A stretch of 64,000 bases of DNA from positions 1-64,000 of the forward strand of contig JAAHFN010000001.1 of assembly GCA_010672965.1 (NCBI GenBank). Reading direction: 5' to 3'. A model generated the notes under the pieces. That model made no database searches. It was given only the letters and a program-made list of their open reading frames with translations, and was not told the DNA's origin. The stretch is from Oscillatoria sp. SIO1A7. Its GTDB lineage: Bacteria > Cyanobacteriota > Cyanobacteriia > Cyanobacteriales > Laspinemataceae. Below are positions 3,555-63,990 of the stretch, piece after piece (the stretch's first letter is position 1; each line of letters starts with the position of its first letter). Made by a program: the position numbers and the translations under genes.

Positions 3555-5297
3555 ATGAGTTACCGGATGAATCGCCGCGCTTACGCAGAAACTTATGGAC
3601 CGACGGTGGGAGATCGCCTGCGTCTGGCGGATACGGATTTAGTCATCGAAGTAGAGCAAGACTACACCACCTACGGCGACGAAGTGAAATTTGGCGGCGG
3701 CAAAACAATCCGAGACGGGATGGGACAGTCCCCCATTGCCAACGCCGATGGAGCGGTAGATTTGGTAATTACCAACGCCCTGATTCTGGATTGGTGGGGA
3801 ATTGTCAAAGCCGATATCGGCATTAAGGATGGCAAAATTTTCAAAATCGGCAAAGCAGGCAATCCTTACATCCAGGATAACGTGGATATTATTATCGGGC
3901 CGGGAACCGAAGCGGTAGCAGGAGAAGGGTCGATAGTTACTGCAGGGGGAATTGACTCCCATATTCACTTTATTTGCCCGCAACAAATAGAAGTTGCGAT
4001 CGCCTCTGGCATCACCACCATGCTCGGGGGCGGAACTGGGCCAGCTACCGGCACCAACGCGACCACCTGCACCCCCGGCCCTTGGAACATTTATCGAATG
4101 CTCCAAGCCGCAGACGCCTTCCCGGTCAATCTCGGCTTTCTGGGCAAAGGCAATAGCAGCCAACCGGCGGGATTGACGGAACAAGTCCTCGCCGGTGCGA
4201 TGGGCTTGAAACTGCACGAAGACTGGGGAACGACCCCCGCCACCATTGACACTTGCTTGAGCGTCGCCGACGAATACGACATCCAAGTCGCCATCCACAC
4301 CGATACGCTCAACGAAGCAGGATTCGTAGAAAACACGATCGCCGCCTTTAAAAATCGCACTATTCATACTTACCATACCGAAGGCGCTGGAGGCGGACAT
4401 GCGCCGGACATTATTAAAGTATGCGGCGAGGCGAACGTGCTGCCTTCTTCGACCAATCCAACCCGTCCTTATACTCTTAATACTTTGGACGAACACCTGG
4501 ATATGCTGATGGTTTGCCATCACCTAGATCCTGGAATTGCTGAAGACGTGGCCTTTGCCGAATCGCGCATCCGCAGGGAAACCATAGCCGCCGAAGATAT
4601 TCTCCATGATTTGGGCGCTTTCAGTATGATTGCTTCTGATTCCCAAGCAATGGGTCGCGTGGGCGAGGTAATTATCCGCACCTGGCAAACTGCACATAAA
4701 ATGAAAGTTCAGCGAGGCTTTTTGCCTTCTCCTGCCAACCCACAGTCTCCGCCTATTTCCCAGGATAACCAGCCTAATGATAACTTCCGGGCGCGGCGGT
4801 ATGTGGCCAAATATACGATTAATCCGGCGATCGCTCACGGAATTGCCCAATATGTCGGCTCCGTGGAAGAGGGCAAACTAGCAGATTTATGTTTGTGGAA
4901 GCCGGCCTTTTTTGGAGTTAAGCCGGAAATAGTTATCAAAGGAGGAGCGATCGCCTACGCCCAAATGGGAGATGCCAATGCCAGCATTCCCACACCGCAG
5001 CCGGTTCTCAGCCAGCCCATGTTTGGCAGTTTTGGCCAAGCTCGCGCCGCCACTTGTTTGACCTTTCTTTCCCAAGCGGCGATGGAACGGGACATCCCAA
5101 CCCAACTAAAATTACAGAAGCAGGCAGTAGCGGTATCCGGCTGCCGCGAGTCGAGCAAACAAGATATGAAGCTAAATGATTTGCTCCCTCGCATCGAAGT
5201 CGATCCAGAAACTTACGAAGTCAGGGCTGATGGAGAGCTGCTCACCTGCGAACCGGCTACAGTCTTGCCCCTAGCGCAGCGCTATTTTCTTTTTTAA
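3555..5297 (+). CDS. ureC: Urease alpha subunit UreC
   Basis: Catalytic subunit of the nickel enzyme urease, which hydrolyses urea to ammonia and carbamate in the cytoplasm. All active-site residues can be placed: H136 and H138 (HIH), the lysine to be carbamylated K219 with H221 (GLKLHEDWG), H248, H274, the flap C321-H322 and D362. Length is 580, slightly above the usual near 570. The excess lies around 389-408, where a Pro/Ser/Gln-rich stretch precedes the conserved [14 protein letters not shown] before the ATG at 3555 fixes the start. The usual ureA and ureB partners are not next to it: the preceding 900 bases are repeats and the next gene is unrelated, so the other subunits and nickel chaperones must be encoded elsewhere. 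Residues look intact, so it is probably functional. Confidence 0.97.
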
Positions 5298-53433: not shown

Positions 53434-56400
53434 ATGTCTCACACTAAGCTCGCCCTCCCGGGCTACCGCGATTTTCAACAGCTCTACGATGGCTCTAGAA
53501 CCGCAGTCTATCGCGGAGTTCGCGTCTCGGATTCCTTGCCCGTCGTCATCAAGCTGCTCAAAACAGAGTATCCTACTCTGGCGGAACTGATGCTGTTTCG
53601 CAATCAGTATTCTATTGCCAAAAGCCTCGACCTGCCGAGAATTGTCAAACCGATCGCTCTGGAAAACTACGGCAATGGTTTGGCCTTGGTTATGGAAGAT
53701 ACGGGCAGCGTCTCCCTGGCCGATTACATCGCTCCCGATGGGAAGGAACAACGCAGTCTTTCTCTGGATGAATTTCTCGCGATCGCCACCCAGCTTGCAG
53801 AAATACTAGGCGGATTGATTCGCCATCGCATAGTTCACAAGGATATTAAACCCCGGAATATTCTAATTAACCCAGAAACCAAAGCAGTCAAGCTGATTGA
53901 CTTTAGCATTTCTGCTATTTTGCCCCCAGAAGAATTAGAAATTGAAAATAGGGGCGCTCTGGAAGGAACTCTCGCTTATATGTCTCCAGAACAAACGGGA
54001 CGCACCAGCCGGGGAATCGACTATCGCACGGATTTCTATTCTCTAGGGGTGACTTTCTATGAAATTCTGACGGGACAACTTCCCTTTCAGTTCGACGACC
54101 CGATGGAGTTAGTCCATGCCCCGATCGCTCGCCAACCCTCTCCTCCAATAGAGATAAATCCCGATATTCCCCAAGCAGTTTCCGATCTGATTCTGAAATT
54201 AATGGCAAAAACGCCGGAAGACCGCTATCAAACTGCCAAGGGGCTTAGCTCCGATCTGGAAAATTGTCTGGCGCAATATCGAAAAAATGGTGAAATAGCG
54301 CCGTTTGCTTTGGGACAAAAAGATTTTAGCAATAGCGATTCATTAGCAGCGAATCGAGAAATAGGCCAACAATTGCCAATCTCTTATAGCAGCGATCGCT
54401 GCGATCGCTGCGATCGCCTATTTTTCGCAGCAGAAAGTCTCGACTCGGCGGCGGAGAAAATGGCGCAGTTGGCCGAAGAGTTCGGCAACCAAAACTCTGG
54501 CTCCGTTCTGGATAGACTCAATATCTGGCGACAACTCACGGAAAATTTATTAGGACTTGGGGACAAGGGGACTTGGGGAGAAGGAGACTTGGGGACAAGC
54601 GAGACAACCCTACACCCAACACCCAACACCCTACACCCTAATTCTTCCCAACACCCAACACCCAACACCCTACACCCTAATTCTTCCCAACACCCAACAC
54701 CCAACACCCAACACCCTAATTCTTCCCAACACCCAACACCCAACACCCTACACCCTAATTCTTCCCAACACCCAACACCCAACACCCTACACCCTAATTC
54801 TTCCCAACACCCAACACCCAACACCCAACACCCTAATTCTTCCCAACACCCAACACCCAACACCCTACACCCTAATTCTTCCCAACACCCAACACCCAAC
54901 ACCCAACACCCTAATTCTTCCCTACACCCTACACCCAACACCCTACACCCTAATTCTTCCCTACACCCTGAAGCTGAGAAGGATCGCGGTTTAATTTTTA
55001 TTTTTTATCTGGCTAAGACCATTCTCTGCTATTTGCTGGGAGAGGAGGAGAGCGCTAGAGCAAACTCGGTCTTAGCCGCCGAATGTCTGGAAGCGGCTAA
55101 GCTAGAACTGGCTAAAGAAATTGGCGCTAAGGAAATTGGCGATACTGCCGTTTGTCATTTTTACTTTTATCGCGCTTTGTCGCTTCTGGCTCGATATCCC
55201 CAAGTACAAGGGCGGGAGCGACAGAGCCTATCCCGGCAAGCTAACCAAGATTTAAAATTTCTAAAAGAACGGGCAGAGCGATCGCCGAGGGATTGTCTGC
55301 ATAAGTTTTATCTGCTCGAAGCGGAACGAGATCGGGTTAAAGGTCGCAAACTGCGGGCGATGGAGAATTACGATCGCGCGATCGCCGCTGCCAAGGAAAG
55401 CAAGTCCCTCTGCGAAGAGGCGCTGGCCAACGAACTCGCCGCTCGATTTTATTTGGAATGGGACAAGGAAAAAATTGCTCGCACTTATTTGCTCGATGCT
55501 TACTACGGTTATGCCCGCTGGGCGGCGACGGCGAAAGTCCAATCTTTAGAAGAACTCTATCCGCAACTATTGGGCAATATAAAGGAGCAAGCAGAAATTA
55601 GAAATCGGGAAACTCTGCTATCGCAAACTATAACGGGAACTCTGCGATCGAGCAGTAAAGTTTCCGAGGCTCTGGACTTGGCCGCCCTGATGAAAGCGAC
55701 CCAAGCCCTGTCCGGCGAAATCCGCTTCCAACCCCTGCTCGGCACTTTAATGCAAGTGGCTATCCAGAATGCTGGCGCTGAAAAAGGCGTTCTGATTTTG
55801 CAGGAAAAAAATAAATTAACTATTGCTGCCGAATGTGTCGGCGGTCGAGAATGTCGCATCCAATCGGTGCCGATTAGTCCGCCGATTAGTCCCACCGTTC
55901 GGGCTATGCCCTTCGGGCAGGCTTCGCCAACGCCTACGACAAGCGATCGCCCGAACGGTACATCATTAACAAGCAAGTCCCAAACATCGGCGCAAGCATC
56001 GGAGCAAGCATCAGCGCGATCGTCGGCGGAACCATCGGCGCAGCAACCACCGGCGCAAAAGTTGGAGCAAGAGTTGGAGCAAGCATCGGAGCGGGTGCCG
56101 ATGACTATAGTTAATTACGTTCTCGATTCTGGAGAAACCTTCGTTTTGGAGGAGGCAACCCTCGATCGCCGCTTTGCAGAAGATCTATATATAGTGGCGC
56201 GGCAACCGAAGTCGCTGCTATGTACTCCTATTCTTTATGGCGGCAAAACCCTGGGAATTTTGTATCTGGAAAACAATCTCGTTTCTGGAGCATTTACCAG
56301 CGATCGCCTGAAAGTATTGAAAATCCTCATGTCCCAGGCGGCGATATCTATTGAAAATGCCCGACTCTACCAGGAAGTCGAAGCCCATTCGCAAAATCTG

Positions 56401-59400
56401 GAAGCTAAGGTCGAAGAGCGGGCTCGCGAACTGCAAGAGGAAATTCGGGTGAGAACCGAGGCAGAGGCGCGGTTCGCCAGCGCTTTTCGCGCCAGCCCCA
56501 ATCCCAGCGCTATTATCAGTTTGAAAAAGGGAACTATTATCGAGGTAAATGAAAGCTTTCTGAGCTGGTTCGGCTGCGATCGGGACGAGCTTATCTGTCA
56601 AACTAGCGTGGAATTGAATCTTTGGGTCAATCCAGAACAGCGCCTAGAAATTCTTAGCATTCTGGAAAGTCGAGGCTCGATTCGTTCTCTGGAATGCGAG
56701 CTTCGCCAAGCATCCGGCGCAATTAGAACCGTGCTTTTTTCTGCGGAGACTCTATATATAGATGGCAAAGCCTGTTGGCTGGGCAGTATTAACGATATCT
56801 CCGATCGCAAGCAAAAGGAAGAGGAGCTGCGCCAGAGCGAAGAGCGCTTTCGGCAAATTGTCAAGGCCAGTCCTCTGCCTTTGCTCATCAGTCGCGCCGA
56901 GGATGGAGTGGTTTTATATGCAAACGAACTTTTGGGAGAGACTTTTGGCATTGCGGTTGAGGATTTGCTCGGCCGCCTAACGCCAGACTTTTACGAAAAT
57001 CCCAGCGATCGCCAGGATTTGCTGCAAACCATAAAACAATATGGCTATCTCCATTCCTATGAAATGAGAGTTAAGAAAGCAGACGGAACGCCTTTCTGGG
57101 TTGCTGCCTCGATACGGCCGATTGTCTATGATGGCAATTGGTCGCTGCTATGTATGTTCTACGACCTGACCGAGCGCAAGGCCGCAGAGGAAAAACTCAG
57201 ACAGAGCGAGGAACGCTGGCAGCTCGCCCTGCAAGGTAGCAACGACGGGATTTGGGATTGGGATTTGTCAGGAAATAGAATTTTTCTCTCTACCCGCTGC
57301 AAAACTATGCTGGGATATGAGGATAAGGATGTTTGCAATAGTCAGGAAAGATATTTTAGCCGCATTCATCCCGATGACTTGACGCCAGTGACAGAAGCGA
57401 TCGCCGCTCACCTCCAGCACAAAACTACCTATTACGCCGCCGAGTTTCGGATGCGCTGTAAGGGTGGTAGCTATAAATGGGTTCTCTGTAGGGGTCGGGC
57501 TCTTTTCGATCGGAACGGAGAAGCGACTCGCTTTATTGGCTCTCAAAGCGATATTAGCGATCGCAAGCATGCCGAAGCAGCTCTAGAGCGCCGAGCCGAA
57601 ACCGATAGTCTGCTCAGCGAGATTTCCCAGCAGTTGGTTGACCAAGATGCAGATATGGCGATTGATTTTACTCTGCAAAAAATCGGTCAATTCTTGGACT
57701 GCGATCGCGCCTATATCACCTGGTATGCCGAGGATAGCAGGACATTTATCAGTACCAGCGAATGGTCTGAAAAAGGTCTGGCATCCATTAGCCATTATTT
57801 TGATGGCATGCCCTTGCAGACTTTTCCCTGGTTTGCAAAAAAAATTATGGCAGGCCAATCTGTTGTCATCTCGAATATGGACGAGTTGCCCGCAGAAGCC
57901 GCAACCGAAAGAGCAGAGCTAGAATGCGAGTCAATTCAATCTATACTTATCGTGCCTACGAGGTACTCTAACCAGAATGTGGGATTGATCGGCGTCGATG
58001 CCATCAGTTCTGCCAAGCAGTGGCAGCGAGAAGATATAAATTTGCTACAGCGAGTCGGGGCGATAGTCGCTATTGCCCGAGCGCGATCGCAAGCGGAAAA
58101 ATACTTACAGGATCAGGCAGAACGCGATCGCTTGTTCGGCCAAATTTCCCGCGCTTTTATCGATCGCGACTTAGATACTGCTATTGATTTTACTCTGCAA
58201 ACTCTCGGGGAAATGACCGGAAGCGATCGGGCGAGCATCTATCGCATCTATGGCAAGCAGCGCCAATGGGATATGACTCGCGAATGGAGTGCCTTCGAGA
58301 TAGAGGCCAGCATCAATAAGTTTCGGGAATTGCCAACTAACGATTACCCGTGGTTGTCCCAACAGCTTCTGAGCGGACAACCTCTGGTGCTTTCTAATAT
58401 TGCCGACTTGCCCCCAGAAGCGATCGTCGAGCGGCAGATTTTGGCAAAAACTCACGTCCGCTCTATACTCTGCGTGCCCATGCTGCACGGAGAAACTACC
58501 ATCGGTTTTCTCTGTCTGGAGACCGCACGCTATAATAAAATCTGGACTGGCGAGGAAATTCGCTTGCTCCGACTGGCGGGAGAGTTTGTTGCCATTACTG
58601 AGATCCGATATGACGCGGAGGAAGCTTTGAAAGAATCCCAGGCGCGTTTTGCCGGAATTCTCGATAATGCCAACGAAGCGATTATTTCCGTGGATGAAAG
58701 TCAAAAGATTATCCTCTTCAACCAGGGGGCAGAAAAAATCTTTGGCTATTCAGATCGAGAAGTCCTCGGCCAACCGCTGGATCTGCTCTTGCCGTCGCGC
58801 TTCGCCAAGTTCCACCGCCAGTATGTTATCGACTTCAGTCACACTCCCGAAGTTGCTCGCAAGATGGCACAAAGGGATGCAGTACGCGCTCGTCGCCGAG
58901 ACGGCAGCGAGTTTCGGGCAGAAGTCTCGATTTCCCAAATCCAATTAGGAACGCGCAAAGTCTTTACGGCTTTTTTGCGCGACATTACCGATCGCTTGGA
59001 AGCGCAAGAAGCTTTGCAGCGCAGCAATACTAGCTATCAAAATTTGGCAGCGAACGTACCGGGGATGATTTTCCAACTGATGCTGCAAGCGGATGGCTCT
59101 ACGAGCTTTATCTATGTCAATCCGGGCTGTCAAGAAATTTTTGGTATCGAACCGGAGGAGGCGATGGGCGATGCCAACTCGATTTTCAATCTAATTCATA
59201 AAGACGATCGCTCTCATACCTATAATTCCCTGCTCGAATCTGCAAAAACTCTAGAACCTTGGCATCGGTTTTGGCGAGTGGTTGTTGGAGGTCGGATTAA
59301 ATGGCTGCAAGGGGATGCCCGACCGGAACGGCAATCGGATGGCAGCATTCTCTGGGATGGATTGGCGCTGGATATCAGCGATCGCAAGCGGGCAGAACTA

Positions 59401-61680
59401 GCACTTATCGACAGCGCCCAAAGGGAAAGAGCGATCGCCAACGTCATCCAAAAAATTCGCCAGACTCTCGACCTAGACACTATTTTCCAAACCGCCGTCA
59501 ATGAAGTGCGCAAACTCCTCGACGTAGAGCGCGTCGCCATTTTCCAATTCCAAGACGACTATTCCGGCGACTTTATCTTCGAGTCCCGCGCCATGAAATT
59601 CGCGCCGGTGGTCGGCAGAGCTTGGGCAGACACTTATCTGCAAGAAACTCAAGGAGGACGATTCCGCAGTAACGAGCCATTCTTCGTAGTCGATGATATT
59701 CACAATGGCAACTTGAGCGACTGCCATATCGAAGCTTTAGAATCTTTTAGCGTCAAATCCTGTGCGGTCTTCGCCATCTTCCAAGGAAAAAAACTCTGGG
59801 GTTTGCTGGGAGTTTATCAAAACAGCGCCCCCCGACATTGGAGCGGCAGCGAATCCAAGTGGCTGATGCAAGTTACCACCCAATTAGGAGTTGCCTTGCA
59901 GCAAGCAGAGCTATTCGCCCGCACGCAAAAACAATCTGCAGAACTCAAAAAAGCCAAGGAAGCCGCCGATGCCGCCAACCGCGCCAAGAGCGAGTTTTTG
60001 GCGAACATGAGCCACGAACTGCGCACTCCCCTCAATGCTATCCTGGGCTTTACCCAAGTAATGAACCGCAATTCCTCTCTATGCCCGGATAATCTGAAAC
60101 ATTTGAGTATTATCAATCGCGCCGGGGAGCATCTGCTCGACTTGATTAACGATATTTTGGAAATGTCCAAGATAGAAGCGGGGCGGACGACATTATATAT
60201 AGAGAGCTTCGATTTATTTCATCTGCTGGACAGCCTGGAAGAGATGCTGCGCCTCAAAGCCCAAGCCAAAGGCTTAGCCCTGACCTTCGAGCGAGCTGCC
60301 GACTTGCCCCAGTTCGTCAAAACCGATGCTGGCAAACTGCGCCAAGTTTTAATTAATCTCCTGGGCAATGCGATTAAGTTTACTGAATCTGGGGAAGTGG
60401 GATTGAGGATTGGGAATGGGGAATTGGGAATGGGGAATGGGGCATTGGGCATCGGGCATGGGGAATTGGGCATGGGGAATCGGGCATTGGAAGGCTTGGC
60501 AGACTTAGAAGGCTTGGAAGCAGTAGGTTGGGCCCGGGAACGAAACCCAACGAGAGAGTCATTGTTGGGTTTCGTTCCCGGACCCAACCTACAGAATCGA
60601 CTTGAAGCTAATAACTCTCAAGCTAAGAACTCAAACCTTGAAGCTAATAACTCAAGACTCAAGGCTCTACCCAATGCCCAATCCTCAATGCCCAATGCCC
60701 AATCCTCAATGCCCAATGCCCAATGCCCAATGCCCCAATTAATATTTGAAGTGGAAGATACCGGCCCGGGCATTGCTGCAGAAGAAATCGATCGCCTTTT
60801 TGAGGCTTTCGGGCAGACGGAGACGGGACGGAAGTCTCAGAAAGGAACGGGGTTGGGTCTGTCTATTAGTCAAAAGTTTGTGGAACTGATGGGGGGCAAA
60901 CTAACTGTTAGTAGCAAGGTCGGAGAAGGGAGCGTTTTTGCTTTCAATGTCGAAATCGAGTTGGCAGAGGCTACGGAAATAGAAAGCGCCCTGCCCCCGC
61001 GCAAGGCGATCGCTCTGGCTCCGGGTCAAGCAGAATATCGCATTCTGGTGGCGGAAGATCGCCTGGAAAGTCGGCTGCTACTGGTGGAAATCCTGAACTC
61101 CATCGGCTTTTCCGTGCGAGAAGCCCAAAACGGCAAAGAAGCGCTAGAATTGTGGCAAAGTTGGCAACCGCAGCTAATTTGGATGGATATGAGGATGCCG
61201 GTGATGGATGGTTTTGAAGCTACTAAGCGGATAAAGGCCCATCCGAAAGGTCGAGAAACGAGGATTATCGCTTTGACCGCCAGCGCTTTTGAAGAAGATC
61301 GCAAACAGGTTTTGTCTGCTGGCTGCGATGATTTCATGCGCAAGCCGTTTCAAGAAGACCTGCTTTTGGCCAAGATGGCAGAACATCTGGGGGTGCAATA
61401 TCTTTATGAAGAAGAGACCGATGCGATCGCAGAACCTACAGGGGGCGAAGAAGGCGCGACCGATGCAGACCCGAGGGTTTATTTAAAACAAATGAATCCC
61501 GACTGGCTAGAACAACTCCAAGAAGCGGCGGCGGACTGTAGCGATGACGTTATTTTGGAGCTAGTCGAGCAAATCCCGGCAAATTGCGCTTCTCTGGCCG
61601 CTAACCTGACGGATTTAGCGAACGATTTCTTATTCGAGCAAATTACAGAGTTAATCCAACAAGCCCAAGATGATAGATAA
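53434..61680 (+). CDS. HstK-like Ser/Thr kinase - histidine kinase hybrid lacking its ATPase
   Basis: 2748 residues. N-terminal eukaryotic-type kinase (about 10-290; HRIVHKDIKPRN with D137, DFS at 156-158). It then reaches FALGQKDFSNSD, where relatives enter an AAA_16 ATPase; here that domain is missing and a 39-bp repeat region encodes HPTPNTLHPNSSQ nine times (about 394-510). Next come the TPR-like stretch normally found after the ATPase (YLAKTILCYLLGEEE, KFYLLEAERDRVKGRKLRAM), a GAF, three PAS, two GAF, two PAS, and a GAF with a cyanobacteriochrome-like DCH motif (C2097). HisKA (H2194), HATPase_c (N2308, D2442) with a 109-residue insertion (2327-2435), a receiver (IWMDMRMPVMD) and a helical tail finish it. 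Confidence 0.87.
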   Translation: MSHTKLALPGYRDFQQLYDGSRTAVYRGVRVSDSLPVVIKLLKTEYPTLAELMLFRNQYSIAKSLDLPRIVKPIALENYGNGLALVMEDTGSVSLADYIAPDGKEQRSLSLDEFLAIATQLAEILGGLIRHRIVHKDIKPRNILINPETKAVKLIDFSISAILPPEELEIENRGALEGTLAYMSPEQTGRTSRGIDYRTDFYSLGVTFYEILTGQLPFQFDDPMELVHAPIARQPSPPIEINPDIPQAVSDLILKLMAKTPEDRYQTAKGLSSDLENCLAQYRKNGEIAPFALGQKDFSNSDSLAANREIGQQLPISYSSDRCDRCDRLFFAAESLDSAAEKMAQLAEEFGNQNSGSVLDRLNIWRQLTENLLGLGDKGTWGEGDLGTSETTLHPTPNTLHPNSSQHPTPNTLHPNSSQHPTPNTQHPNSSQHPTPNTLHPNSSQHPTPNTLHPNSSQHPTPNTQHPNSSQHPTPNTLHPNSSQHPTPNTQHPNSSLHPTPNTLHPNSSLHPEAEKDRGLIFIFYLAKTILCYLLGEEESARANSVLAAECLEAAKLELAKEIGAKEIGDTAVCHFYFYRALSLLARYPQVQGRERQSLSRQANQDLKFLKERAERSPRDCLHKFYLLEAERDRVKGRKLRAMENYDRAIAAAKESKSLCEEALANELAARFYLEWDKEKIARTYLLDAYYGYARWAATAKVQSLEELYPQLLGNIKEQAEIRNRETLLSQTITGTLRSSSKVSEALDLAALMKATQALSGEIRFQPLLGTLMQVAIQNAGAEKGVLILQEKNKLTIAAECVGGRECRIQSVPISPPISPTVRAMPFGQASPTPTTSDRPNGTSLTSKSQTSAQASEQASARSSAEPSAQQPPAQKLEQELEQASERVPMTIVNYVLDSGETFVLEEATLDRRFAEDLYIVARQPKSLLCTPILYGGKTLGILYLENNLVSGAFTSDRLKVLKILMSQAAISIENARLYQEVEAHSQNLEAKVEERARELQEEIRVRTEAEARFASAFRASPNPSAIISLKKGTIIEVNESFLSWFGCDRDELICQTSVELNLWVNPEQRLEILSILESRGSIRSLECELRQASGAIRTVLFSAETLYIDGKACWLGSINDISDRKQKEEELRQSEERFRQIVKASPLPLLISRAEDGVVLYANELLGETFGIAVEDLLGRLTPDFYENPSDRQDLLQTIKQYGYLHSYEMRVKKADGTPFWVAASIRPIVYDGNWSLLCMFYDLTERKAAEEKLRQSEERWQLALQGSNDGIWDWDLSGNRIFLSTRCKTMLGYEDKDVCNSQERYFSRIHPDDLTPVTEAIAAHLQHKTTYYAAEFRMRCKGGSYKWVLCRGRALFDRNGEATRFIGSQSDISDRKHAEAALERRAETDSLLSEISQQLVDQDADMAIDFTLQKIGQFLDCDRAYITWYAEDSRTFISTSEWSEKGLASISHYFDGMPLQTFPWFAKKIMAGQSVVISNMDELPAEAATERAELECESIQSILIVPTRYSNQNVGLIGVDAISSAKQWQREDINLLQRVGAIVAIARARSQAEKYLQDQAERDRLFGQISRAFIDRDLDTAIDFTLQTLGEMTGSDRASIYRIYGKQRQWDMTREWSAFEIEASINKFRELPTNDYPWLSQQLLSGQPLVLSNIADLPPEAIVERQILAKTHVRSILCVPMLHGETTIGFLCLETARYNKIWTGEEIRLLRLAGEFVAITEIRYDAEEALKESQARFAGILDNANEAIISVDESQKIILFNQGAEKIFGYSDREVLGQPLDLLLPSRFAKFHRQYVIDFSHTPEVARKMAQRDAVRARRRDGSEFRAEVSISQIQLGTRKVFTAFLRDITDRLEAQEALQRSNTSYQNLAANVPGMIFQLMLQADGSTSFIYVNPGCQEIFGIEPEEAMGDANSIFNLIHKDDRSHTYNSLLESAKTLEPWHRFWRVVVGGRIKWLQGDARPERQSDGSILWDGLALDISDRKRAELALIDSAQRERAIANVIQKIRQTLDLDTIFQTAVNEVRKLLDVERVAIFQFQDDYSGDFIFESRAMKFAPVVGRAWADTYLQETQGGRFRSNEPFFVVDDIHNGNLSDCHIEALESFSVKSCAVFAIFQGKKLWGLLGVYQNSAPRHWSGSESKWLMQVTTQLGVALQQAELFARTQKQSAELKKAKEAADAANRAKSEFLANMSHELRTPLNAILGFTQVMNRNSSLCPDNLKHLSIINRAGEHLLDLINDILEMSKIEAGRTTLYIESFDLFHLLDSLEEMLRLKAQAKGLALTFERAADLPQFVKTDAGKLRQVLINLLGNAIKFTESGEVGLRIGNGELGMGNGALGIGHGELGMGNRALEGLADLEGLEAVGWARERNPTRESLLGFVPGPNLQNRLEANNSQAKNSNLEANNSRLKALPNAQSSMPNAQSSMPNAQCPMPQLIFEVEDTGPGIAAEEIDRLFEAFGQTETGRKSQKGTGLGLSISQKFVELMGGKLTVSSKVGEGSVFAFNVEIELAEATEIESALPPRKAIALAPGQAEYRILVAEDRLESRLLLVEILNSIGFSVREAQNGKEALELWQSWQPQLIWMDMRMPVMDGFEATKRIKAHPKGRETRIIALTASAFEEDRKQVLSAGCDDFMRKPFQEDLLLAKMAEHLGVQYLYEEETDAIAEPTGGEEGATDADPRVYLKQMNPDWLEQLQEAAADCSDDVILELVEQIPANCASLAANLTDLANDFLFEQITELIQQAQDDR
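54613..54963 (+). repeat. 39-bp in-frame minisatellite in the kinase gene
   Basis: Nine copies of a 39-base unit encode HPTPNT(L/Q)HPNSS(Q/L); 13 codons keep the frame. The opposite strand is also open here. The unit is made of caacaccc and ctacaccc blocks like the intergenic heptamer repeats, with an aattcttcc spacer. It lies where the family's ATPase domain would be. Confidence 0.95.
60412..60738 (+). repeat. Repeat-derived in-frame insertion in the HATPase_c domain
   Basis: 327 bases between the N-box (LLGNAIKF) and VEDTGPGI of the kinase. It is built of ggggaatgggg / gggcattgggcat units, a 70-bp palindrome (60523-60592; gtaggttgggcccgggaacg and its complement) and atgcccaatcctca units. 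The same palindrome lies inside the family A element at 63706-63779. Confidence 0.9.
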
Positions 61681-62791: not shown

Positions 62792-63003
62792 TTTATTTTT
62801 TATACTCAGAAACTTCAGAATTACGGTTTTTTGAAGGATTATATTTTTTAGGGACCATTTAATGGCGATCGAGGCTCTTTGGCTGTTACCCTTGGCTATA
62901 CAAAAGTGCAGGAAGTGCAAAACGTCCAGAAATTCCCAAAATTTTCTGCCTTCAATGTTGAAATTCGAGGAAAACTGTGCTAATATGGTTTTATACCTCC
63001 CTA
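62792..63003. other. Spacer after the cyclase gene
   Basis: AT-rich, no recognised gene. The minus-strand frame 62693-63013 has no family resemblance. Confidence 0.5.
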
Positions 63004-63280
63004 GAGGGGGCATAAAAGAGGGCCACGGCTAGCCGCGACCCTTTGTGACAAGGAACATAGCAAACTTTAGCAAGGAGGTGTTTTCACTCAAAAAATTTCT
63101 CTCAAACACCCAGGCTGTTAGGGCTAGGGGTAAGCCTTGGACTCTGGGCAAGTAGTCCGTTGGCTTACTCCAATAGCAGCCCCAGGTGGGAAGCCCAGCC
63201 AAAATGCCGCTTACGGGGGCCCGTAAAGCGGCAGCGGGTGGGTTTCCTTTGGGAGAAATTCACGCTAGTTTTTACCACTG
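63004..63280 (+). ncRNA. Structured RNA candidate, possibly HEARO / omega-RNA-like
   Basis: A series of strong hairpins can be drawn. Cggctagccg (about 63025-63034). Ggtgttt...aaacacc (63076-63110) with a 21-base loop. A nested stem ggctg...cagcc (63113-63182) enclosing gtaagcc/ggcttac and ggact/agtcc. Gccgcttacgggggcccgtaaagcggc (63206-63232). A closing pair agcgggtg/cacgct around tttcctttgggagaaa (63233-63266). No protein is coded. The shape and a vague family recall suggest an IscB-associated HEARO (omega) RNA without its nuclease gene; other structured RNAs cannot be excluded. Strand + is chosen from the order of stems and the absence of coding. Confidence 0.5.
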
Positions 63281-63681
63281 GTCTTAATTAGCCTGGAAGT
63301 CGGGAAAAGTGACGACGTAATGAGCGATCGTCGCACCGAGCTTCCGCGCTAGCTCGCGGGCGATCGCTCTGCGGGCGATCGCTCTGCGGGCGAATGCGCG
63401 TCGCTGAGGAGCGATCGCGCCAACGCGGCTATTTGCACCAGGGAGGAAACTGGGCGTAGTGCCTCCTTGCTTTTTGTAGATTTTACAACGACTTGCTTTA
63501 TTTTGTATGCGCTCTCCTGCCCGACGGAGGGACAACGGCCCTGCGCTGGACTGTGGGGAGGGTGGGGCAGGCGATTTGGCGATCGCGATCGGAGCGAAGA
63601 ATTATCGCAGTAAGGCAGTTCCTACCTCAACTTTGAGTGCAAACTGACTAATTTTTTTTTGGGTTTTAACTTATCAGAGTT
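63281..63681. repeat. Spacer with HIP1-rich repeats
   Basis: gcgggcgatcgctct units (63358-63395) and other HIP1 sites. The minus-strand 83-codon frame 63284-63535 is built mostly from these repeats (ARRAIARRAIAREL) and is not called a gene. No IscB or TnpB reading frame is found. Confidence 0.65.
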
Positions 63682-63823
63682 GGGAGCATTTCACTTTTGT
63701 AAGTAGTAGGTTGAGCCCGGGAACGAAACCCAACAATAGCGTCAGTTTTGTTGGGTTTCGTTCCCGAGCCGCTCCCTACATTGCTATGTATCCCTTGCAA
63801 AATTGAAATGCTCCCTCAGAGTT
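63674..63823. mobile_element. MITE, family A, copy 3
   Basis: 134-bp element (63682-63815) with ends gggagcatttcacttttg and caaaattgaaatgctccc; tcagagtt is duplicated at 63674-63681 and 63816-63823. A long palindrome occupies the middle (63706-63779). Confidence 0.92.
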
Positions 63824-63892: not shown

Positions 63893-63990
63893 GTCAGATC
63901 CCCCCAACCCCCCGATAAATTGGGGGGCTATTGAGAGATTCAGAGCTTAGCCCCCCTTTTTAAGCCTTTTTAAGGGGGGTTGGGGGGATC
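63893..63990. mobile_element. Inverted-repeat element, family E, copy 2
   Basis: gatccccccaaccccccgat at the left and ggggggttggggggatc at the right are inverted; the inside holds taagcctttttaagg. The copy at 48091-48264 has the same ends and the same accaacgtc left flank. Confidence 0.75.

Follow-up and report, generated by a model that had tools for sequence, protein, structure and literature searches.

In bacteria, a structured RNA is typically present in one or a few copies per genome, or it accompanies a protein gene. HEARO (omega) RNAs (RF02033) measure 200–300 nt, have many stems and reach high copy numbers in some genomes, being multi-copy in some cyanobacteria, and their adjacent open reading frame (ORF) can be absent. 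The IS110 bridge RNA (seekRNA), also structured, has internal segments that vary from one element to another. Miniature inverted-repeat transposable elements (MITEs), like other small repeats dispersed in bacterial genomes, are short, intergenic, high in copy number and lineage-specific, and diversity-generating retroelements (DGRs) hold a short A-rich variable segment in conserved surroundings. Cyanobacterial small RNAs of the Yfr2 type are present as several structured paralogues in a genome, all of them stand-alone genes, with a constant exposed motif and a distribution almost throughout the cyanobacteria (PMC6778093). Apart from the constant motif and wide distribution of Yfr2, these traits recur in the element analysed here, which was noted at positions 63004–63280 of a 64,000-nt window (the whole stretch of DNA analysed) of Oscillatoria sp. 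SIO1A7. This element is one of ~120 copies scattered through one cyanobacterial genome, and what is new is the combination of copy number, lack of a partner gene, a covarying scaffold and a hypervariable strand. Very probably, the copies constitute an undescribed, lineage-specific family of structured RNA genes; the open-access literature searched holds no description of such a family.

The first-pass annotation of the window had offered two identities for the element, a stand-alone HEARO (IscB omega RNA-like) or a new RNA, and had proposed looking for further copies in the genome (9,081,372 bases in 182 contigs). A DNA search found 41 matches to the element, and a covariance model built from 23 copies (R1; 187 positions, 49 pairs) found 124 matches at E ≤ 0.1, of which ~117 are full length with 78–198 bits. 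This search scored the best 150 candidates from a first look, and weaker copies may exist. The copies are almost all intergenic, with 108 of the 112 examined overlapping no ORF of at least 150 aa. The ORF closest on the upstream side mostly shares the direction of the element (54 of 87), and the closest one downstream is mostly opposed to it (59 of 88), which places the copies mostly behind genes. At locus L077 (2891–4734), four to five copies form a tandem array with a 481-bp period, in which two adjacent units are almost identical, variable strand included. Loci L103 (C95:137644) and L105 (C95:68367) share a 1.0-kb segment including a copy, duplicated at 99% identity, and two of its few differences are located in the 17-nt variable strand. 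Partial second core motifs (TTCACTCAAAAAATTTTCTCCCT) occur ~100 bp 5' of complete copies at L043 (2576–2611) and also upstream of the element at L032 and L034.

Outside this genome, R1 gave no match in 13 genomes of the family, which were scored more deeply, and none in 292 other genomes of the order or 385 genomes of the phylum, where 6–8 candidates were scored per genome and a very diverged homologue could escape. The collections searched may leave out records of the same or very near genomes. The sole weak signals (25–30 bits, all ~161 nt long) came from one sister genus, and the one that was read lies inside an apparent repeat-protein gene on the other strand. Only three short matches were obtained by DNA search of 39 relatives, the one read being coding. 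A pattern scan of 84,980 species gave 18 matches, which is chance level; none was backed by the covariance model, and the two cyanobacterial ones, when read, proved to be coding. Nothing was found in phages and plasmids, and of two patterns run on viral contigs one gave no match and the other five, none backed by the covariance model. Among the genomes searched, the family is confined to a single one and is lineage-specific.

The annotated stretch had been described as strongly structured and non-coding, and both properties were borne out. The fold of 62980–63305 has an energy of −135.6 kcal/mol, compared to −109.0 ± 5.6 kcal/mol for dinucleotide shuffles (z = −4.7; none of 100 shuffles equalled it), and no long ORF overlaps the plus strand of 63004–63280. 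Within or next to this stretch, seven helices are assignable (P0, P1 and P3–P7; Table 1), and an eighth, P2, is a long-range helix whose 3' strand (63460–63471) falls outside it. Covariation was assessed on 109 copies aligned to R1, an alignment that is fitted to the structure and thus favours it. Pairing was found in 87.3% of cells (82.9 ± 0.2% in shuffled alignments), 36 of the 49 pairs had both sides changed (19.9 ± 2.5), compensatory cells numbered 227 (87.7 ± 6.4) and the covariation score was 0.175 (0.109 ± 0.003). When the 3' partners were shifted by 1–3 columns as a control, the score fell to 0.033–0.053, and an independently made alignment (A2) gave covariation in the same direction. 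RNAalifold on a plain MAFFT alignment, which was poor, recovered 21 pairs only, and the structure-guided model was required. The P3–P7 stems are real, and the scaffold is maintained by compensating mutations. The 5' hairpin P0 is likewise kept while its stem bases change between copies.

The long-range helix P2 closes the RNA in a subset of copies. In 43 copies, AGCAAGGAGGTG is complementary to a ACCTCCTTGC motif with a T-tract located ~215–570 nt downstream; at least four further pairs beyond the GGAGG/CCTCC core are present in 29 of these 43, and three copies carry T-A where most carry C-G. The P8 domain between P3 and the P2 3' strand is itself structured, with a mean z of −2.9 over 35 copies. 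In a 484-nt model of the window copy (−238.5 kcal/mol), P2 closes the junction of the P3 and P8 arms. At least one third of the copies show a closing helix with a terminator-like end.

The upstream region is conserved as well. A sigma-70-type promoter (TTGNNN/TANNNT, with TTGAAA and TAATAT as the commonest boxes) precedes 112 of 118 copies, with a spacing of exactly 17 bp in 108 of them, and at least one GTGCAGAA (one mismatch allowed) lies upstream in 108 of 118 copies, compared to 8 of 118 in shuffled sequences. For the window copy, transcription is predicted to start near 62993, and the transcript model would span ~480 nt, from about 62993 to 63475. The core of the element fits the annotated 63004–63280, and these limits are too narrow, since the copies resemble each other from about 62861 on and the modelled transcript extends to about 63475. 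The product does not appear to be a protein: no reading frame is clearly kept open across copies, and the strongly conserved GGAGG is followed by ATG, GTG or TTG at a distance of 4–12 nt in none of 116 copies, so that it is not an ordinary ribosome-binding site. No protein gene is common to the neighbourhoods of the loci examined beyond families common in the genome, and the absence of a partner gene, already remarked on for the window copy, holds at all of these loci. Together, the ~120 copies, the covariation and the conserved promoter support the second of the two identities, a new RNA.

P1 (..CGCGACCC TTT) and P2 are separated by an A-rich strand of about 12–18 nt (~55% A, 8% T), which differs from copy to copy. 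In close copies, its mismatch is 0.24–0.40 per 6-nt bin, compared to mostly 0.03–0.16 elsewhere in the element. Across 44 disjoint close pairs, median divergence is 0.33 for the strand, 0.059 for the core, 0.093 for the adjacent 120 bp (promoter region) and 0.18 for the 110–190 bp beyond it, a far upstream region that lies partly within the element and serves as a rough and probably inflated estimate of the neutral rate. The strand is more divergent than the core and the adjacent DNA in 43 of the 44 pairs, and 35 of the pairs show it above the far upstream region. L082 and L089, for example, have no difference in the adjacent 120 bp and differ at 1.1% of the core, whereas their strands disagree at 7 of 18 positions. 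As an unconstrained spacer should not surpass the neutral rate, either mutation or selection makes the strand diverge, or the remainder has been homogenised around it. The changes are not adenine-specific beyond composition. Shuffling of ready-made strands among copies was also considered and rejected, as the longest words shared with unrelated copies average 8.4 nt compared to 7.4 in shuffled strands, with a maximum of 11 in both.

The best explanation as a whole, which we hold tentatively and at somewhat less than even confidence, is a family of promoter-bearing scaffold RNAs, each with an address-like strand. Each copy would be transcribed from its own promoter, probably under one common regulator, and the scaffold would bind a common partner whose gene lies elsewhere. 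The exposed strand would then act in trans as a copy-specific address by short base pairing, or alternatively be a tag obliged to differ between copies; the address mechanism is somewhat less likely than not, and seed pairing of 8–12 nt with targets in trans is possible. Segments containing a copy would be duplicated and so spread the family, and the address strand would subsequently change quickly via selection or targeted mutation. A further step would be an RNA-only recognition repertoire of ~120 co-regulated paralogous scaffold RNAs that would silence, provide immunity or control the element itself, with addresses made different either through targeted mutation or under strong diversifying selection; this seems unlikely. 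Several observations weigh against an address-bearing RNA family. No P2 3' strand was recognised in about two thirds of the copies, in some of which another repeat comes directly after P3. The composition of the strand is what an unpaired linker might have. Pairing of the strand with its own locus is at chance level and no better than that of other copies' strands. The two strands tested have no other match in the genome on either DNA strand with 2–3 mismatches allowed, by which a captured genomic spacer was also rejected as the origin of these two. Finally, high-copy intergenic repeats are often merely mobile DNA.

The last point leads to the main rival, a non-autonomous mobile element, similar to a MITE or a short interspersed nuclear element (SINE), whose RNA it would need in order to spread with enzymes encoded at other loci. 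In this case, the variable strand would be a by-product, for instance an imprecise copying or joining site in each round. High dispersed copy number within one lineage, the 481-bp tandem array, copies at contig ends (L081, L086, L046 and L148) and very similar copies in unrelated flanks all fit this explanation, and left and right hairpins in some copies keep it alive. However, the common flanks of close copies are ragged and of differing length (~1 kb in L103/L105), and in close pairs neither terminal inverted repeats nor target duplications could be recognised, although the ends are partly hidden by other repeats. These two features argue against a classical MITE, but the element may nonetheless be mobile. 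Moreover, no transposase or reverse transcriptase gene is common to the neighbours of the copies, and unlike in MITEs, promoter spacing and RNA base pairs are preserved across diverged copies around one hypervariable strand. On this balance, we regard a mobile element as a real but lesser possibility.

It is rather improbable that the strand is an ordinary unconstrained linker that only seems fast because short-tract gene conversion homogenises both flanks, with the tracts stopping at the heterologous linker. The flanking motifs would be suitable, being long and nearly identical recombination anchors, and the higher divergence of the far upstream region indicates that the element and its surroundings age differently. 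Yet patterns such as that of L082/L089, which recur in many pairs, would need two conversions halting at the same linker, and the strands retain some relatedness within subfamilies.

A stand-alone HEARO can practically be dismissed: the many stems, the similar length and the absence of an ORF fit, but the element has no match at the gathering threshold among 4,227 Rfam families, a permissive scan of 62900–63450 up to E = 10 gave chance-level matches only and no HEARO, the best RF02033 score in the whole genome is 17 bits (cut-off 83) at a different place, and the variable strand is internal and not derived from a flank or located at a transposon edge. The element also differs from HEARO in having its own internal promoter. 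In agreement with the first-pass annotation, no iscB-like ORF is present in the last 6 kb of the window, and the IscB-type domain PF14239 has no match in the genome, which is weak evidence alone as the control genomes were silent too.

The remaining systems differ in other ways. In contrast to the IS110 bridge RNA, no recombinase gene lies beside any copy, and the few IS110 matches in the genome, at C161, C116 and C99, are at least 25 kb from copies. Unlike Yfr2, the family has an exposed strand that varies, is found in one genome only and has no Rfam match. DGRs are set apart by their reverse transcriptase, which is lacking here, and by adenine-specific change. A DGR or retron RNA was rejected, as the PF00078 matches in the genome, by inspection, all look like maturases of group II introns whose C-terminal ends are HNH-like. 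At L107 (240–1935) and L170 (790–2356), the reverse transcriptase genes of such introns seem to be broken by frame changes; one of the two is located ~0.9 kb ahead of an element copy, probably a coincidence.

Table 1. Coordinates of the element and its predicted RNA features in the window copy
Feature	Position	Strand	Basis
Upstream GTGCAGAA-type repeats, possible regulator sites	62906–62950	+	Found in 108/118 copies
−35 box TTGAAA	62958–62963	+	TTGNNN/TANNNT in 112/118 copies
−10 box TAATAT	62981–62986	+	Same promoter count
P0, 5' hairpin (TTTATACCTCC / GGGGGCATAAA)	62990–63016	+	Predicted in copies with differing stem bases
P1 hairpin (GGGCCACGG...CCGCGACCC)	63020–63041	+	
Hypervariable A-rich unpaired strand, copy-specific	63045–63061	+	Divergence in close pairs; no second match in the genome
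P2 5' strand AGCAAGGAGGTG, including highly conserved GGAGG	63069–63080	+	
P3 5' strand	63094–63103	+	Covariation, helix 1
P4 (63109–63120 with 63173–63186) and P5 cap (63127–63143 with 63153–63171)	63109–63186	+	Covariation, helices 2–5
P6 (63188–63200 with 63236–63247) and P7 cap (63205–63233)	63188–63247	+	Covariation, helices 6–9
P3 3' strand GGGAGAAATT	63251–63260	+	Covariation, helix 1
P8, variable-length hairpin domain (~26–380 nt among copies)	63262–63458	+	Fold z −6.7 in this copy
P2 3' strand TGCCTCCTTGCT and T-tract, terminator-like RNA end	63460–63475	+	Motif with T-tract in 43 copies; 484-nt fold
Extent of the repeated element	62861–63681	+	Copy-to-copy alignments from 62860–62897 to 63531–63686
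Further conserved tail	to ~63890	+	Tail block, broken by another repeat at 63682–63815

The repeat inserted in the element tail (63682–63815) is MITE-like, with complementary ends (GGGAGCATTTCACTTTTGTA ... CAAAATTGAAATGCTCCC) that recur at many loci (e.g. L030, L036, L039, L043, L105, L112 and L130), and a palindromic C-rich/G-rich repeat lies at the end of the window (63895–63990; GATCCCCCCAACCCCCC ... GGGGGGTTGGGGGGATC). Upstream of the element, a 2748-aa kinase/PAS/response-regulator ORF (53434–61680) contains in-frame tandem insertions (HPTPNTLHPNSSQ repeats, and PNAQSSMP repeats beside the ATPase domain), and these insertions belong to a minisatellite type that also fills intergenic DNA in this genome. 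The sole Rfam match of the window is 5_ureB_sRNA (3706–3996, minus strand; 108 bits), perhaps merely a family overlapping the ureB coding sequence.

Nothing comparable to these ~120 RNA genes, with their covarying scaffold, common promoter and single fast strand, exists among the families tested. Should the strand serve as an address, Oscillatoria sp. SIO1A7 would possess a CRISPR-independent RNA repertoire; should it be a copying trace, it would show the spread of an RNA-bearing element. In either case, 120 natural variants in one genome make the structure, partner and target of this RNA directly testable.
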